Source: Clostridia bacterium
GTDB lineage: Bacteria; Bacillota; DAOUPZ01
Assembly: GCA_030625885.1 (NCBI GenBank)
Contig: DAOUPZ010000025.1
Coordinates: 1-48,654, forward strand
DNA length: 48,654 nucleotides
Reading direction: 5' to 3'
The position numbers were made by a program, and so were the translations under genes. The notes beneath the pieces are model-generated. The model was given only the letters and a program-made list of their open reading frames with translations. It had not been told where the DNA came from and made no database searches. Shown piece after piece: positions 25,340-33,856 of this stretch; position 1 is the stretch's first letter; each line of letters opens with the position of its first letter.

Positions 25340-25359
25340 AGTATATAATATATCTAAAA

Positions 25360-25669
25360 GCGATGAGCGGAAGAGTAAGTATTATATTATGAATGTTACA
25401 GAAAACTGGGAAGTGTGAGAACCAGTACAATCATTTAATACTGAAAATCATCCGTTAGCTGCAAACCGAACAGATTCTTTCCTAGTAGGTTATGCCGGGA
25501 CTCTTAAAGAGAATTAGCACCCGTTACTGTGCTGAAGTATCGAGTTTTAGACTCCGTACTTATTGAGATTGTTATCGCGAGATAGCAATGAAAAAAGGTG
25601 GTACCACGAGAAAAGAATCCTCTCGTCCTTACGTAATGATTAAATTGCGTGAAGACGAGAGGATTTTTT
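25360..25669 (+). promoter_or_regulatory. T-box leader (isoleucine specifier) controlling ilvA
   Basis: Stem I begins AGCGGA (pairs with TCCGTT) followed by the AGAGTA loop motif; the specifier loop on the 3' side reads TGAAAATCA, in which ATC (Ile) followed by A is the best specifier. The T-box sequence AAGGTGGTACCACGAG is at 25595-25610. The competing terminator is AATCCTCTCGTC ... GACGAGAGGATT plus T run (25616-25669). Uncharged tRNA-Ile would stabilise the antiterminator and allow ilvA transcription. Confidence 0.92.
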
Positions 25670-25779: not shown

Positions 25780-26787
25780 ATGGAAATTTTACAACCTTGT
25801 GTAGAAAACAAAAGTGAAAAAGAAGCTGTCGTTGCCCTTAAAGATATTGTTCGAGCCAAAATGCTTATATCTCCCACAATACATCAGACCCCTCTTAACC
25901 ATTCCAAAACATTTAGTAAAATGACCGATAACGAAGTTTATTTGAAGCTAGAAAATTTACAAAAAACAGGTGCCTTTAAAATTAGGGGGGCCACAAATAA
26001 AATTTACAACTTATCACCTGAAGAAGCTCAAAATGGCGTCATCGCTGCATCAGCCGGAAACCATGCTCAAGGCGTCGCTCTCGCAGCAACTTCTCGAAAT
26101 ATTAAATCCGTTATTGTTATGCCCAAACACGCGCCAAGTGCTAAAATTATGGCAACACGAGGGTATGGGGCTGAGGTCGTTCTACACGGACAAAATTATG
26201 ATGAAGCTTACCAGCATGCACTAAACCTACAATGGGAAAAAGGATACACCTTTGTTCATGCGTTTGATGATTCAGAAGTCATTGCCGGTCAAGGGACGAT
26301 CTCCCTGGAAATACTTGACCAAATGCCTGATGTGAACATGATCATTGTCCCCATTGGCGGTGGTGGACTGATCTCCGGGATGGCCATTGCTGCCAAAGAA
26401 ATTAATCCTAAAATTAAAATAGTCGGCGTTCAAGCTTCCGGGGCAGCATCCATGTATCTTTCCCGTCATAATAACAAGGTATCACAATTACCCGGCGTAA
26501 AAACAATCGCAGATGGGATTGCTGTCCGCCAACCCGGTCATATGACTTTTAATTATGTTCAAAAATACGCGGATGATATTGTTACCGTCGAAGAAGATGA
26601 AATTGCGGATACGATTCTCACGCTCCTAGAACGCGGTAAGTTTATGGCTGAAGGTGCAGGTGTTGTGGGTCTTGCAGCTCTACTGAATGAAAAAATTTAT
26701 GTGAGGGGCGCTAAAGTGGCTGTCTTAATCAGCGGGGGAAATATAGATGCTTTGAGAATTTCTGAAATCATCAGGGAGATGAGGTAA
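25780..26787 (+). CDS. ilvA: Threonine ammonia-lyase, short form without ACT domain
   Basis: PLP enzyme that converts threonine to 2-oxobutyrate, the entry to isoleucine synthesis; serine is often also used. 335 residues. PLP lysine in LQKTGAFKIRGATNKI (about residue 67), substrate loop SAGNHAQGVALAA, phosphate-binding PIGGGGLISGMA, and a C-terminal SGGN. The allosteric ACT-like domain present in biosynthetic IlvA of many species is missing, giving the size of the catabolic TdcB type. The isoleucine T-box in front argues for a biosynthetic job with control moved to transcription. SD GAGAGGAGGAAAT. Confidence 0.92.
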   Translation: MEILQPCVENKSEKEAVVALKDIVRAKMLISPTIHQTPLNHSKTFSKMTDNEVYLKLENLQKTGAFKIRGATNKIYNLSPEEAQNGVIAASAGNHAQGVALAATSRNIKSVIVMPKHAPSAKIMATRGYGAEVVLHGQNYDEAYQHALNLQWEKGYTFVHAFDDSEVIAGQGTISLEILDQMPDVNMIIVPIGGGGLISGMAIAAKEINPKIKIVGVQASGAASMYLSRHNNKVSQLPGVKTIADGIAVRQPGHMTFNYVQKYADDIVTVEEDEIADTILTLLERGKFMAEGAGVVGLAALLNEKIYVRGAKVAVLISGGNIDALRISEIIREMR

Positions 26788-27007: not shown

Positions 27008-28183
27008 TTACGTCAAATACTCCAATGCCAAGGCCACATAAAACTTAATAGCATCCAAGTATTTCTCAATCTCTACATACTCATTAGGCTGATGTGCCAT
27101 CTTCTCATCGCCTGGTCCAAACAAGATTGTAGGCATCCCCGTTTTGGGCACAAATACCGAAGCATCCGTATAATAATTAACACCACAGGGGACTAATTTT
27201 ACATCTAAAGCCTCATCTGCTGCTTTAATCCCTTGCATCATAAATTCTGAATCAACGGGCGTTTCTACCGGAGGGCGATTATTCGTTACTTTGAATGTCG
27301 CTTGAAAACCAGAAATACTTTCAGATAACTGATCAATTATTTTTTCAAAATCATTAATAATTGCTTGATGTTCTTGACCCGGAACTGTACGCATATCAAT
27401 TGATAACGTACAAACATCAGGCACGACATTTGTTTTAACCCCGCCTTTAATCGTAGCAATATTTATTGTCGGACCACCCAAAAGATCATGCGGTGTATAA
27501 TCAAACTGATAACAATTAAGTTGATTTATTAAAGCATTCATTTGTATAATTGCATTATTCCCACAATCAGGCATTGACCCGTGTGCTGTTTTCCCTGAAG
27601 TGGTAACCTCTATCCATAATGCGCCTTTCGTGGCTGAGAATAGTTTTAAATTGCTGGGTTCCCCAATTACAGCAGCACCAACATTTTTTAAATAACCTTT
27701 TGCATAAAAATCGAATGCACCGATACTATCTACTTCCTCACCCGCTGTCCCAGCAATTAATAAATCCCCTTTTAATGGAATATCCGCTCGTGCAATAAGT
27801 GTGGCTGCCACAACCATAGCAGCAAACCCGCCTTTCATATCGGAAGCACCACGACCAAATACTTTTCCATCTTCAATAACCCCGCTAAAAGGATCATGTA
27901 TCCAGGAAATATCACCCGGCGGAACAACATCCAGGTGCCCATTAAACAGCAATCCCTGACGTTCATTTCCACCGTTTATTACGCCGATCACATTCCCCCG
28001 GCCGTCTGCCAAATCATCTGTATGACTCTCTATACCCAGTTGCGATAATTTTTCTGCTACATATTGCGCTAACGCCATTTCCTGTCCGGGTGGATTAACC
28101 GTATTGTAATGAAGCATTTCTTGTAAAACCTTGATCGCCTCAGCTTCATCTAATCTTTCAACCACTTTCATATATGGATTCAT
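27008..28183 (-). CDS. M20 family amidohydrolase (ArgE/DapE/aminoacylase type)
   Basis: Di-zinc peptidase-fold enzyme that removes acyl groups from amino acids. 391 residues. Metal-site motifs in order: FNGHLDVVPPGD (His, Asp), GRGASDMKGG (bridging Asp), AGTAGEEVDS (catalytic Glu pair) and VIGEPSNL, with a C-terminal His in KMAHQPNEYV. The dimerisation domain is present. The assignment to acetylornithine deacetylase versus succinyl-DAP desuccinylase is open. As last gene of the transporter operon (25 bases after livF) it more likely processes an imported N-acylated or dipeptide-like amino acid compound. SD GGAGGTGG. Confidence 0.88.
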   Translation of the reverse strand: MNPYMKVVERLDEAEAIKVLQEMLHYNTVNPPGQEMALAQYVAEKLSQLGIESHTDDLADGRGNVIGVINGGNERQGLLFNGHLDVVPPGDISWIHDPFSGVIEDGKVFGRGASDMKGGFAAMVVAATLIARADIPLKGDLLIAGTAGEEVDSIGAFDFYAKGYLKNVGAAVIGEPSNLKLFSATKGALWIEVTTSGKTAHGSMPDCGNNAIIQMNALINQLNCYQFDYTPHDLLGGPTINIATIKGGVKTNVVPDVCTLSIDMRTVPGQEHQAIINDFEKIIDQLSESISGFQATFKVTNNRPPVETPVDSEFMMQGIKAADEALDVKLVPCGVNYYTDASVFVPKTGMPTILFGPGDEKMAHQPNEYVEIEKYLDAIKFYVALALEYLT

Positions 28184-28207: not shown

Positions 28208-28933
28208 TTACACGGCTTTATCTACCGTTTTATGCAAATATGCATTTTCGATTCTTTCTTTACTGAGTGTATCTTCACCATGACTTTCCATAACAATTTC
28301 ACCTTTTTGCAAAACATAAACACGGTCCGCGATCGCAATCGCTTTATGCGCATTTTGCTCAATCAAAAGAATCGTCGTCCCATCTTCTTTATTAATTCTC
28401 ACAATGGTATCGAAGATTTCCTTAATAAGAATCGGTGCCAACCCAAGCGATGGTTCATCCATTAAAAGCAGCTTAGGCTCACTCATAAGGGCACGACACA
28501 TCGCCAGCATTTGCTGTTCGCCCCCGCTCAAAGTACCTGCAACCTGGGTTTTTCTTTCACCAAGCCGTGGAAATAGTTCATAGGACTTAAGCAAATTTTT
28601 CTCAATCCGTTTCTTGTCATCAATCATACATGCTCCTATTAACAAGTTATCTTCCACACTCAGTTTAGGGAAAACACGCCGCCCTTCAGGTACAATTGCG
28701 ATTCCTTTTTGCACAATTTGCGGTGTATTTAAATTGTCTATTCGCTGCCCTTCAAATAATACTTCTCCCTCACTGGGTTTAACAAGACCAATGATTGTTT
28801 TAATCGTTGTCGTTTTACCGGCACCATTACTGCCAAGCAAACAAGTTATTTCGCCTTTACCAGCTGTCATATTCATATTGCGTAAAACCCTTATTGACCC
28901 ATAGTGCGTCATTACATTTTTAAGCGCTAACAT
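28208..28933 (-). CDS. livF: Branched-chain-type amino acid ABC transporter ATPase LivF
   Basis: Cytoplasmic ATPase of a HAAT-family importer. 241 residues. Walker A GSNGAGKTTT (about 34-43), Q-loop region, signature LSGGEQQMLAMCRALM, Walker B LLLMDEPSLGLAP, H-loop LLIEQNAHKA. The first 14 bases overlap the end of livG, showing translational coupling. Confidence 0.95.
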   Translation of the reverse strand: MLALKNVMTHYGSIRVLRNMNMTAGKGEITCLLGSNGAGKTTTIKTIIGLVKPSEGEVLFEGQRIDNLNTPQIVQKGIAIVPEGRRVFPKLSVEDNLLIGACMIDDKKRIEKNLLKSYELFPRLGERKTQVAGTLSGGEQQMLAMCRALMSEPKLLLMDEPSLGLAPILIKEIFDTIVRINKEDGTTILLIEQNAHKAIAIADRVYVLQKGEIVMESHGEDTLSKERIENAYLHKTVDKAV

Positions 28934-29708
28934 GTTCTTCTTCCTCCCCTAAATAAGCCCGAACAACTTCCTTGTTCTTACTGACTTCTTCAAATAAACC
29001 TTCCGCAATTTTTTGACCGTAATTAAAACACATGACGCGATCAGCCAATCCTTCGATTAATCCCATATCATGTTCGATAACAATAATTGAAATATGGGGT
29101 TGAATATTATGTATTTTGCGAATATCTTTAACTAAATTTTCTGTCTCATTTGGATCCATTCCCGCTGATGGCTCATCTAAAATCAAAAGCTTAGGCTGGG
29201 AAATAAGAGCCCGACAAATCTCCAACCGCCGTCGATCAGCATACGATAAACTATTTGCCAATGTATCCTGCTCTTGTAGTAAATGCTCACTAAAATAGCC
29301 GATAATCTCACGCGCTTTCCCAATAGCCTGATTTTCCTCTTCACGTGCGCGGAGATTATGAGTGACTGCCTCCCATATGAAACTACGCTGTTTAGTATGT
29401 AAGCCAATCATGACATTTTCTAAAACATTTAATCCCCAAAACAATCTCCCATTTTGAAATGTTCGTGCAATACCCAACTTAAAGTTTTTATCCGGGCGTG
29501 CACCATTTATTAATTTCCCTTCAAAAAATATCTTTCCGTCTGCCGGCTCATAAATGCCAGTCAATAAATTAAAAAAGGTCGTTTTCCCTGAACCATTTGG
29601 TCCTATAACGCCAACCGTTTGCCCTTTATCAATACTAAAATCCACTTGATTTACAGCAGTCAAACCACCAAACTTCATGGTTAGTTTTTCCGTTCTTAAC
29701 AGTTCCAT
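28920..29708 (-). CDS. livG: Branched-chain-type amino acid ABC transporter ATPase LivG
   Basis: Second ATPase of the same importer, 262 residues. Walker A GPNGSGKTTFF, the LivG-type LARTFQNGRLFWGLNVLENV after it, signature-like LSYADRRRLEICRALI, Walker B LLILDEPSAGMDP, H-loop VIEHDMGLI. It follows livM by about 52 bases with a GGTTAGG-type weak SD. Confidence 0.95.
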   Translation of the reverse strand: MELLRTEKLTMKFGGLTAVNQVDFSIDKGQTVGVIGPNGSGKTTFFNLLTGIYEPADGKIFFEGKLINGARPDKNFKLGIARTFQNGRLFWGLNVLENVMIGLHTKQRSFIWEAVTHNLRAREEENQAIGKAREIIGYFSEHLLQEQDTLANSLSYADRRRLEICRALISQPKLLILDEPSAGMDPNETENLVKDIRKIHNIQPHISIIVIEHDMGLIEGLADRVMCFNYGQKIAEGLFEEVSKNKEVVRAYLGEEEEHVSA

Positions 29709-29760: not shown

Positions 29761-30984
29761 TTATGTATAAATTTTTGCCTCGTTTTCTTGATGTTCAACA
29801 TTTTTTTCAAGGTTTTCACCTTCTAAATTCCATGTCGATGTATATTTTCTCAAATGCGCAGAAATCAAACCGTCATTCTTAAAAAGAAGAATTGAAACAA
29901 TAACGACACCATAAAACATCACACGATAATCTGCAAATGCTCTAAACTTTTCCGGTACAATGGTCAGTAAAACAGCACCAAATATGACGCCGGGTATTGA
30001 ATCTATTCCCCCTAGCAATATCATGCTGAGAATAAGAATCGAATGAGAATAAGTAAAGTTTTCTGGCGCAATAAACCCTACCATGCTTGCATAAACAGCG
30101 CCAGCTATACCTCCAAATAATGCGCCAAATGCAAATGCCCAAAGTTTGTTCTTAGTCAAATTTATGCCATAGCATTGAGCTGCCAATTGATCTTCACGAA
30201 TTGCATTCCATGTTAATCCCGTTAACGAATTAGAAATTCTTGTGGCTACAATAATTGAAAGACAAACTAATACTAATATTAAATAATAAAAATTTGCATG
30301 AAATGGAAGACGAGTAAACCCTAAATCTAATGGCATATTAAAAGAATAATTACCGATATTCGGTGCGGGAATATTCATTAACCCATTTGTTCCTCCGGTT
30401 AAACCTTCCAAATTTATGGTTAATTGATACACTACTAAACCAAAAGCTATTGTAACAAGTGCCAGATAATGACCTTTAACCCGTAAGGCGGGCAAACCTA
30501 ATATAAAGCCAAAAATCATAACCATTAATCCTGATAATGGTAAACACAACCAAAAGGATAGTCCAAATTTAGTAGCTAATATGCCATAAGTATAAGCTCC
30601 AATAGCATAAAATGCAGCATAGCCTAAACATACAAGTCCTGCATTACCCACCATTACATTAAGACCCAGTGCCATTATGATATATAATCCAACCATGATT
30701 GCAACTTGAATCCAATATGGATTATTAGCTTGAAAGAAAGGAAATGTCATCAACAAGCAAACAAGGCTGATTTTTGCGATGCGCTTATTATCTCTAAACA
30801 TTGCTTGTATCTTTTCGATCAACCCCATATATTTTTTCTTCAGATAAATTACCAAAACACTAAAAAACAAAATAATACCACCACATATGGCATAATTTTC
30901 CACGCTGATAACAGCAAGTAACCCTAAAAACAAAATGAATTCTATCAGCAAAATGCTAAGAACATCTTTTGTTTTTCTATTCAT
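29761..30984 (-). CDS. livM: ABC transporter permease LivM
   Basis: Membrane permease, 407 residues, with about ten hydrophobic segments. The conserved LivM core is GLNVMVGNAGLVCLGYAAFY (about 105-125), the EAA-like loop is FTRISNSLTGLTWNAIREDQLAAQCYGIN-like (key residues RED..A..YGI), and FIAPENFTYSHSILILSMIL follows. Its N-terminus is about 70-80 residues longer than a minimal LivM, with two or three extra membrane segments. Starts 14 bases after livH. Confidence 0.94.
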   Translation of the reverse strand: MNRKTKDVLSILLIEFILFLGLLAVISVENYAICGGIILFFSVLVIYLKKKYMGLIEKIQAMFRDNKRIAKISLVCLLMTFPFFQANNPYWIQVAIMVGLYIIMALGLNVMVGNAGLVCLGYAAFYAIGAYTYGILATKFGLSFWLCLPLSGLMVMIFGFILGLPALRVKGHYLALVTIAFGLVVYQLTINLEGLTGGTNGLMNIPAPNIGNYSFNMPLDLGFTRLPFHANFYYLILVLVCLSIIVATRISNSLTGLTWNAIREDQLAAQCYGINLTKNKLWAFAFGALFGGIAGAVYASMVGFIAPENFTYSHSILILSMILLGGIDSIPGVIFGAVLLTIVPEKFRAFADYRVMFYGVVIVSILLFKNDGLISAHLRKYTSTWNLEGENLEKNVEHQENEAKIYT

Positions 30985-30998
30985 CTTAGCACCCCCTA

Positions 30999-31925
30999 CT
31001 ATACTTTCTCGTAAACTTTTTCATTAAATATGCCCGAAGGTTTAAATACCAAGAATAAAATTACAATTGCAAAACCAATAACATCCTGATATTGAGAACC
31101 ACCCGGGATAAATGCTGCAGCAAACATTTCCAAAAATCCGAGTAAAAATCCACCTACTATCGCACCATATATATTACCCAACCCACCGACTACTGCCGCA
31201 GAAAATCCTTTAATACCGATTAAAAATCCCATATTAAACTTAATAATGTTATAATACATACCATTCATTACACCGCCAGCCGCTCCTAATGCTGAACCAA
31301 CAATAAATGTAAATGTTATAATCTTATTAATATCAATCCCCATCATCATTGCCGCTTCACGGTCTTGAGAAATTGCCAACATATATCGTCCATACTTAGT
31401 TTTGTTAACTAAAACATGTAAAAGCAAAACCATTAACAAAGCAAAACCAATTACAAACATTTGTTCATATTTCAAAACAATCCCCATTAGATTAACACTA
31501 CCACCTGGAAATAAGTCCGGGAAAGCCTGAGGATTCGCACCATTTGGATAAAAAATCATAACGCCTTCGCGAATTATGATGGATACACCAAGCGTTAACA
31601 ACAACATCATTAAATCAGATGCACCACGCATGGGTCTAATAATCGCCCTTTCAATTATTGCCCCTGCCAAACCACTCACAACCATGGCGACAATAAGCAC
31701 AATAAACAACACTAAAATAAAATGGGAAGCTAACATCCCTGTTCCCGCAAAAAATCCTACTGTAATTAATCCTACAAAAGCACCCAGCATATATATTTCT
31801 CCATGGGCAAAGTTTATTAAATCAATAACACCAAAAAACAACGTAAACCCTACTGCAACCAATGAATACATTGATCCCAAAGTTAGTGCATTGATTAATT
31901 GCTGAATCACAACTGAAAAATCCAT
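30999..31925 (-). CDS. livH: ABC transporter permease LivH
   Basis: Partner permease, 308 residues from the ATG at 31925 (MDFSVVIQQLINALTLGSMY), preceded by SD AAAGGAG. Typical GFTLFFGVIDLINFAHGE and VGGLGNIYGAIVGGFLLG segments. About eight membrane helices. Confidence 0.95.
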   Translation of the reverse strand: MDFSVVIQQLINALTLGSMYSLVAVGFTLFFGVIDLINFAHGEIYMLGAFVGLITVGFFAGTGMLASHFILVLFIVLIVAMVVSGLAGAIIERAIIRPMRGASDLMMLLLTLGVSIIIREGVMIFYPNGANPQAFPDLFPGGSVNLMGIVLKYEQMFVIGFALLMVLLLHVLVNKTKYGRYMLAISQDREAAMMMGIDINKIITFTFIVGSALGAAGGVMNGMYYNIIKFNMGFLIGIKGFSAAVVGGLGNIYGAIVGGFLLGFLEMFAAAFIPGGSQYQDVIGFAIVILFLVFKPSGIFNEKVYEKV

Positions 31926-31955
31926 AACGTATTCTCCTTTCCAAAACAAGAGGAT

Positions 31956-31987
31956 GCAGGTTTCGATAAATATTCATCGAAACCTGC
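31956..31987 (-). promoter_or_regulatory. Intercistronic hairpin between livK and livH
   Basis: GCAGGTTTCGAT ... ATCGAAACCTGC, 12-bp perfect arms around an 8-base loop and without a T run. It is the kind of stem that protects the 3' end of an abundant binding-protein message or causes partial termination. The rest of the gap (31988-32185) is pyrimidine-rich with an AGCTGATAACTAATAACTG word, and no gene. Confidence 0.6.
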
Positions 31988-32185
31988 AAGTTTTACATGG
32001 TAAAAGCTAATCTATGATTTACAATAAATGTTTTTCATCCTTTTAGCTTTCATCTCATTTTTTTGTCTTTCCCTTTAAGCTGATAACTAATAACTGATAG
32101 CTAAACTTCATCCTTTATATTTGAATCCAACCCATCAAATTTTGATTGTGAGTTTCATGTTATATATTGCTTGCACGCTATAAAA

Positions 32186-33349
32186 CTATTTAATATATTG
32201 TTCTTTAAAACTGGATTTTTCCAACGGAATCCATTTACCATCTTCTACAACATATGTAATAACGCTGTTTAATTCCGTTTGTCCGCTTTCATCAAAAGAA
32301 GTCTTTCCTAATACACCATCAAAGTCTTCTGTATCTCGAATCGCTTGAGTGACACTTGCGCGATCAGGTGTACCAGCATCTCTTAAAGCTTCTATGATAA
32401 TATTCGCTGCATCATATGCAAAAGGTCCAAATGCTTCATGAGGTTCTTTAAATTCAGCTGCTTCATAGGCTTGGATATATTCTTGACCTTTAGGCAAGTC
32501 TTCTATAGGGCTGATCAAACCATGACACAAAGCGCCTTCACCTAACTCTCCGGCAATATCAACAAAGGTCTTCGTGTGAATACCAGAATCGCTCATGAAA
32601 ATGGCCGGAATCTTAAGCTCATCCATTTGACGTTTAATCAGTGCCGCTTCAGTCGCTAACCCGCCAAAGAAAATCATTTCTGGGTCTTCAGCTTTTATTT
32701 TCGTAAGTAGTGCTGAGAAATCTTGCTGTCCTACAGCTATTCCATCAAAACTGAGCATTTCCGCACCGTTTTCTTGAGCTTTTTGAATAAATTGCTCTGC
32801 ATTGGTTTTTCCATAGTCCGTTTGATCATGGATTACAGCAATATTTTTAGCACCAAATTTAGTCGTAGCTACATCACCAGCATACACATTTTGAATTTCC
32901 GATGCTGAAATAACCCGAGTAATCTCATCATAGCCATCTTGGGTAATTTTATCGTTAATCGCTGAAGCAATGACTGCAGGTAAGCCATACTTATGAAAAA
33001 CATCTTTTGTTGCTAAGGCACAACCGCTATTGAAGTGAGCCACAGCCCCCAAAACATCTGGATCAGAAGCAGCTTTATTAACAGCATTAACTGCTGTTGC
33101 TGGGTCACTTGCATCATCAAGTGGTACCAATTCTAATTCAAATGGTAAATCACCTTTATCATTGGCTTGTTTGACAGCAAGTTCTGCAGAATTACGCATT
33201 CCAAGTCCAATTGCTGCATTGGGTCCTGTAATCGGTGCAATAAAAGCAATTTTAACAACTTGGGATTGACTTTCTCCACCACACCCCGTTAAAACCATCG
33301 GTACAGTCAATACTAAAACTAACATTAATGTCAATAATTTTCTCTTCAT
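32186..33349 (-). CDS. livK: Substrate-binding lipoprotein of the LIV-type ABC transporter
   Basis: Periplasmic-binding-protein type I fold anchored to the membrane. 387 residues; signal peptide with lipobox VLTGC. Mature start KIAFIAPITGPNAAIGLGMRN is the LivJ/LivK signature; Leu/Ile/Val-type ligand site segments follow (VAHFNSGCALATKDV, FGAKNIAVIHDQTDYGK). The ligand is not readable from sequence; the glycine riboswitch upstream points to glycine, a small amino acid or a derivative of it. First gene of a livKHMGF-M20 operon. SD GGAGGT. Confidence 0.94.
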   Translation of the reverse strand: MKRKLLTLMLVLVLTVPMVLTGCGGESQSQVVKIAFIAPITGPNAAIGLGMRNSAELAVKQANDKGDLPFELELVPLDDASDPATAVNAVNKAASDPDVLGAVAHFNSGCALATKDVFHKYGLPAVIASAINDKITQDGYDEITRVISASEIQNVYAGDVATTKFGAKNIAVIHDQTDYGKTNAEQFIQKAQENGAEMLSFDGIAVGQQDFSALLTKIKAEDPEMIFFGGLATEAALIKRQMDELKIPAIFMSDSGIHTKTFVDIAGELGEGALCHGLISPIEDLPKGQEYIQAYEAAEFKEPHEAFGPFAYDAANIIIEALRDAGTPDRASVTQAIRDTEDFDGVLGKTSFDESGQTELNSVITYVVEDGKWIPLEKSSFKEQYIK

Positions 33350-33442: not shown

Positions 33443-33476
33443 AAAAAAAGAGATTAAGCTTTTTGTGCTCAACCTC
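33443..33476 (-). terminator. Riboswitch-linked intrinsic terminator upstream of livK
   Basis: Minus strand GAGGTTGAGC-acaaaa-GCTTAATCTC (10-bp stem with two wobbles) followed by seven T. It sits between the glycine aptamers and livK, so it is the likely expression platform. Confidence 0.85.
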
Positions 33477-33581
33477 TGATTTCTAATCGATAATACGCAT
33501 CAAGAACCATTCATTAAAATAGCTAAAATTCATAAAGAGATGACGCCATAAAAAATGTCATCCTTTAGCATATAACTAAAT

Positions 33582-33800
33582 CCTGCGCATATCCTCTGTC
33601 CTTTTACCTGAGAGATTATCTGTTTTCACAGACTTGCTCCTTCGGTGCCTTTCTCTTGAACCTATCTAAGATGTCTATCCTTAAGTCTCTCCAGAGGCCA
33701 GTCCGGCTACAGTCCTTTTTCCTTACGGAAAGCCTGAGATTTTGAGCTGTACATACAGCCTTGTCCCTTCGGCAGAGGTTTCTCTCTTCTCCTGCAACCA
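33582..33800 (-). promoter_or_regulatory. Tandem glycine riboswitch
   Basis: Two glycine aptamers read from the minus strand. Aptamer 1 (about 33688-33800): GAGAGAAACCTCTGCCGAAGG, ATCTCAGG, AAAAAGGAC, CTCTGGAGAGAC. Aptamer 2 (about 33582-33660): AAGAGAAAGGCACCGAAGGAG, AATCTCTCAGGTAAAAGGACAG. The repeated GCCGAAGG/CACCGAAGG, ATCTCAGG and AAAGGAC blocks are the class signature. A 62-codon open frame across it is an artefact. Known glycine riboswitches with this layout usually switch genes on with glycine; direction here is inferred. Confidence 0.95.
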
Positions 33801-33827
33801 TCATCCTGTCTATTCAATTTTAAAGGT

Positions 33828-33856
33828 ATTATAACATATTGTACTAATATTGTACA
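33828..33856 (-). promoter_or_regulatory. Promoter of the glycine riboswitch-liv operon
   Basis: Minus strand TGTACA (33851-33856), 17-base spacer, TATAAT (33828-33833), about 25-30 bases before aptamer 1. Confidence 0.75.

Follow-up and report, generated by a model that had tools for sequence, protein, structure and literature searches.

Glycine riboswitches in the searchable literature stand mainly before glycine cleavage, symporter and glycine reductase genes, and before serine or malate-synthase genes. LIV-type importers are routinely annotated as leucine, isoleucine and valine (Leu/Ile/Val) transporters from homology alone. For a symporter leader of S. pyogenes, early termination has been measured with glycine (PMC5829553), and a survey of glycine riboswitches notes that OFF control is to be expected in a transporter context and ON control in a cleavage context (PMC6944388). 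In the part of the literature that could be searched, we found no glycine riboswitch before a LIV-type importer.

Here we analyze such an arrangement in a contig of a Clostridia bacterium (DAOUPZ010000025.1; the whole stretch of 48,654 nt is referred to as the window). Conserved with an importer operon, as here in four families, an RNA sensor of known specificity offers separate evidence on what the importer carries. What is new is an expression platform predicted to work as an OFF switch. Since the importer would then be off when glycine is plentiful, its cargo is probably glycine or a glycine-releasing compound, and the glycine-riboswitch regulon would gain a LIV-type ABC importer together with a co-transcribed hydrolase.

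A tandem glycine riboswitch upstream of livKHMGF-M20

The first-pass annotation had read a promoter, two glycine aptamers and a terminator ahead of a livK-H-M-G-F-M20 gene row. Both aptamers score above the RF00504 (glycine riboswitch) cut-off of 32 bits (Table 1), so that the Infernal search it had proposed with the glycine RNA model recovered the complete pair. A cmscan of the window gave one of the two, probably because they overlap by five bases, and aptamer 1 came from the single-model genome search. The ligand-pocket core motifs, GCCGAAGG, CUCAGG and those of the CUCUCAGG type, are retained in every LIV aptamer, which speaks against variants with a changed specificity. In folding, the leader outperforms 100 of 100 shuffles (z -3.7). 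The terminator hairpin was found as described, with a stem of 11 rather than 10 pairs. The promoter corresponds to a site that ends 24 nt ahead of aptamer 1 and matches the consensus at 10 of 12 positions, a kind of site that as a class is not above chance in the window (3 found versus 4.0 expected).

The gene row follows in the order described, entirely on the minus strand, with livK starting at an ATG (33349) that has GGAGG 7 nt upstream. A Peripla_BP_6 protein, two BPD_transp_2 permeases and two ATPases in one operon identify it as a LIV/HAAT ABC importer. LivK scores 185.5 bits against the curated cut-off of 477 for the LivK model, and all five Liv proteins fall far under their respective NCBIfam cut-offs. 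The last gene encodes a protein with both M20 domains (Peptidase_M20 and M20_dimer) that belongs to the ArgE/DapE subfamily (TIGR01910, 307.8 bits, cut-off 217.6); none of the M20 equivalog models matched reaches its cut-off. M20 enzymes of this subfamily act on a wide variety of substrates. Outside the cassette, the M20 nearest in sequence (G111, 53%) adjoins an amidohydrolase-like gene that no NCBIfam model matched at the threshold applied. Between livK and livH, a gap of about 260 nt includes a long hairpin, TGCAGGTTTCGATGAATATTTATCGAAACCTGCA, which could perhaps set the level of the binding protein above that of the permeases.

Table 1. Features of the riboswitch leader, the operon and neighbouring RNA elements, in window positions
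Feature	Position	Strand	Evidence or remark
Promoter-like TGTACA-17-TATAAT, extended -10 (TG before -10)	33828..33856	-	Consensus scan, 10/12 match
Glycine riboswitch aptamer 1	33700..33804	-	RF00504, 39.8 bits, single-model genome search
Glycine riboswitch aptamer 2	33586..33704	-	RF00504, cmscan, 58.3 bits, E 1.4e-9 over window
P1 5' strand of aptamer 2, UGGCCUCUGG	33691..33700	-	Predicted partners: P1 3' strand or terminator 5' arm
P1 3' strand of aptamer 2, GGACAGAGG	33593..33601	-	Predicted to pair downstream when ligand-free (partial-transcript fold)
Terminator 5' arm and flank, UCAGAGGUU	33479-33471	-	Predicted antiterminator partner
Intrinsic terminator-like hairpin	33449..33477	-	11-bp stem, loop 7, TTTTTT; T run to 33443
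livK-like solute-binding lipoprotein	32186..33349	-	Peripla_BP_6; best PDB match Atu2422 (sequence and fold)
livK-livH gap with long hairpin	31926-32185	-	
livH-like permease	30999..31925	-	Profile matches
livM-like permease	29761..30984	-	Profile matches
livG-like ATPase	28920..29708	-	Profile matches
livF-like ATPase	28208..28933	-	Profile matches
M20 metallohydrolase, ArgE/DapE deacylase subfamily	27008..28183	-	TIGR01910
Threonine ammonia-lyase gene	25780-26787		Downstream of the T-box leader; convergent with the LIV operon
T-box leader	25354-25633	+	97.9 bits; specifier by eye looks like AUC (Ile)
c-di-GMP-I riboswitch	42149-42065	-	87.7 bits; adjoins pilus genes downstream
Prepilin-peptidase and tad-type pilus genes	41627 down to 34495		Gene row after the c-di-GMP-I riboswitch

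Conservation of the riboswitch-operon link

LivK was searched in 61 relatives and then in 398 genomes of the phylum, which yielded only three close orthologues: G006 (75% identity), G027 (66%) and G035 (66%), each from a different family (range 65-75%). Tandem glycine aptamers and a terminator precede livK in all three, and with 4/4 close LivK genomes carrying the arrangement, a chance or isolated association is ruled out. The livKHMGF-M20 row is complete in G006 and G035; in G027 the cassette is divided between contigs C170 and C99, the latter holding the livM end, livG, livF and M20 in order. M20 is thus the final cassette gene in all four genomes, while the genes flanking the cassette differ from genome to genome. 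LivK homologues at 28-46% identity had no glycine riboswitch in the stretches searched. The four LivK proteins form a single clade (support 99/98), so the link was inherited by descent and does not represent four independent events. Sequence and conservation together establish the link between the riboswitch and the livKHMGF-M20 operon.

Glycine riboswitches as such are common in the phylum, being present in at least 215 of the 398 genomes. The genome studied here has four further tandem copies, before a symporter gene, before folD-gcvTHP-fhs and at two other loci. In G027 and G035, the riboswitch of the livK leader is the only one detected. GcvP was detected in G000 and G006 only, and a sodium:alanine symporter was not detected in G035, where the LIV system may therefore be the main regulated route.

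Direction of control

We compared the four LIV leaders with two leaders of Na+:alanine-symporter genes, one from the same genome (C9) and one from G006 (C22). In all six, the terminator 5' arm and the P1 5' strand of aptamer 2 are complementary to each other. Five leaders have a complementary run of 7-10 bp, with duplex energies at p <= 0.003; in G035 the run is 5 bp, at p = 0.05 (2000 shuffles each). For the livK leader of the window it spans 10 bp, with a duplex of -12.7 kcal/mol against -10.8 for P1. At two pair positions of the antiterminator, the leaders show AU/GC versus GC/AU exchanges. When partial transcripts ending at the terminator 5' arm were folded, the antiterminator formed in 6/6 leaders and the P1 3' strand paired downstream in 5/6. 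The LIV leaders accordingly show the OFF-type architecture, an antiterminator built on the P1 5' strand and a terminator apart from P1, most weakly in G035. Full-length ligand-free equilibrium folds already prefer the terminator in most of the six leaders, and a working switch would therefore have to operate kinetically.

The aptamers group in the same way. Identity is 60-87% within the LIV and symporter set, reaching 87% between the two G006 leaders, versus 49-61% between LIV and gcv-type aptamers. The genome contains both ON and OFF designs, and its LIV leader groups with the symporter leaders. In its gcv leader and two others, the P1 3' strand is part of the terminator itself, whose stem has 24-28 bp, an ON design. 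Further observations concern two ON-type tandem riboswitches of this genome, whose aptamers carry substitutions within the CCGAAG motif. The one at L014 (C26; 1320-1515 and 1607-1717) is followed by a 36-codon ORF, MREIISNLGKFLLCGMLMYCHYNNVIPQQYCDNKEE, possibly a glycine-induced small protein, and a terminator-like hairpin; the one at L013 (C23; 131-325 onwards) is followed by another such hairpin and then by genes for GntR, an ectoine-hydrolase-like M24 protein, a TRAP transporter and an M20 protein.

The pairing of the terminator arm with the P1 5' strand, as in the symporter leaders and unlike the gcv leader, indicates that glycine should repress uptake, and we regard a transcriptional OFF switch as a well-supported prediction for the livK platform. 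The opposite possibility is that glycine induces the operon for glycine fermentation or detoxification. G000 and G035 do carry GrdB-family genes, and elsewhere glycine induces grd and gcv operons (PMC11477304). The livK terminator, however, lacks the P1 3' strand, which is part of the terminator in this genome's three ON-type leaders; on this ground we rejected an ON-switch reading of the leader, and induction for either purpose appears very improbable.

Binding pocket, hydrolase and candidate cargo

Thr102, Asp121 and an acidic residue at position 226 are usual in proteins that bind free amino acids, and the acidic residue holds the amino group of the ligand. A literature search for the role of Glu226 found no paper; in LivJ, Thr102 and Ser79 have been named as pocket residues (PMC6983066). 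The best match of LivK, both by sequence (E 5e-47) and by fold (TM 0.82/0.91), is Atu2422 (3ip5), which binds glycine, serine and GABA (PMC6819510). Phe77, the leucine-excluding residue of Atu2422, is kept in 4/4 LivK orthologues, and it was the F77A form of Atu2422 that was crystallised with leucine (3ipc). The four orthologues lack the LivJ/LivK pocket set: Thr102 is replaced by Ile, Asp121 by Ser, Ala or Ile, and the acidic residue 226 by Ser. Among 16 other binding proteins compared, all have an acidic residue 226, 14 have Asp121 and 13 have Thr102. Asp225 is invariant across the four and could substitute for residue 226, restoring amino-group binding.

A true branched-chain importer, with glycine acting indirectly, for instance as a sign of amino-acid plenty, would agree with the homology to LivKHMGF and with the T-box on the threonine ammonia-lyase gene beside the operon, which places Leu/Ile/Val metabolism under RNA control nearby. 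Against it stand the conserved Phe77, given that leucine was accommodated in the F77A form, the replacement of Leu77, Tyr202 and Glu226 of E. coli LivK, and the low scores of all five Liv proteins. We consider it improbable and the Leu/Ile/Val label doubtful, as the first-pass annotation had anticipated and as Phe77 and the replaced Glu/Asp226 suggest.

Import of free Gly, Ala, Ser or Pro under the same OFF switch, with M20 as an ancillary peptidase, is a serious contender, if short of even odds. It would account for the match to Atu2422, for Phe77, Ser79, Tyr150 and Leu202 as in that glycine/serine/GABA binder, and for a leader design common to glycine/alanine symporters. It accounts less readily for the replacement of Thr102, Asp121 and the acidic 226 together, and M20 would be retained in 4/4 cassettes without obvious need. 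The pocket replacements and the conserved ArgE/DapE-type hydrolase together suggest instead a ligand whose amino group is blocked and from which hydrolysis would release glycine, so that, judged from residues and gene content, a glycine conjugate is slightly favoured over free glycine. The first-pass annotation had predicted a transporter for glycine, a related small amino acid or a glycine conjugate. The riboswitch, conserved with the operon across four families, bears out the premise, and among these three alternatives the pocket and M20 lean towards the conjugate.

The same pocket replacements occur in two sister clades, joined to the four LivK proteins with 100/100 support; neither had a glycine riboswitch in the stretches searched. 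The Moorella-type clade lies beside xanthine dehydrogenase, dihydroorotase-type, carbamoyltransferase and carbamate kinase genes, and the Burkholderiales clade beside amidase and carbamoylase-type genes. Replacements and neighbours of this kind are in keeping with an N-blocked ligand for LivK. The neighbours would also fit an unrelated amide or ureide as cargo, with glycine arising only some steps later, and purine fermentation in Clostridium acidurici passes through glycine (PMC3519856). The cassette, however, is without purine, hydantoin or ureide enzymes, and it is the sister clades that are without the riboswitch, which makes such a cargo unlikely.

Proposed mechanism

Our main reading, to which we assign a probability of roughly 0.4, combines an OFF switch, import of a glycine-yielding solute and release of glycine by M20 in one explanation. 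Its computed basis consists of the aptamers, the terminator, the gene order, the conservation in four families and the complementarity. At low glycine, the P1 5' strand of aptamer 2 would pair with the terminator 5' arm (predicted pairing segments UCAGAGGUU and GGCCUCUGG), the P1 3' strand would pair downstream, and RNA polymerase would read into livKHMGF-M20. With enough glycine, P1 would close, the terminator 5' arm would be released and transcription would stop. LivKHMGF would take up a small glycine-yielding solute, candidates being an N-acyl or N-carbamoyl glycine, a glycine amide or a peptide, which we favour over free glycine. M20 would then set glycine free inside the cell, so that glycine, as the end product, would switch off its own supply. 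The more specific form of this proposal, a glycine-repressed salvage cassette for N-blocked glycine in which LivK has lost its amino-group site and M20 frees the glycine that is sensed, is put forward tentatively.

Comparison with known systems

The S. pyogenes leader of the sodium:alanine symporter family (PMC5829553) is an OFF leader that resembles the livK leader in its tandem aptamers, premature termination and transporter target. Its target is a symporter; here it is a LIV-type ABC importer with M20, and repression is predicted. The symporter leaders of this genome and of G006 share the antiterminator design and have aptamers 65-87% identical to those of the LIV leaders, differing in the gene controlled. 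The ON-type riboswitch of the same genome before folD-gcvTHP-fhs (C23:79984-80177) belongs to the same tandem aptamer class and differs in that its terminator contains the P1 3' strand in a 25-bp stem. Among binding proteins, Atu2422 of Agrobacterium has Phe77, Asn78, Ser79, Tyr150 and Leu202 in common with LivK, whereas its Thr102, Asp121 and Asp226 correspond to Ile, Ser and Ser. Finally, E. coli LivKHMGF has the same K-H-M-G-F order and domain make-up; the operon described here differs from it in the extra M20 gene and in a LivK with Phe, Ile, Leu and Ser in place of Leu77, Thr102, Tyr202 and Glu226.
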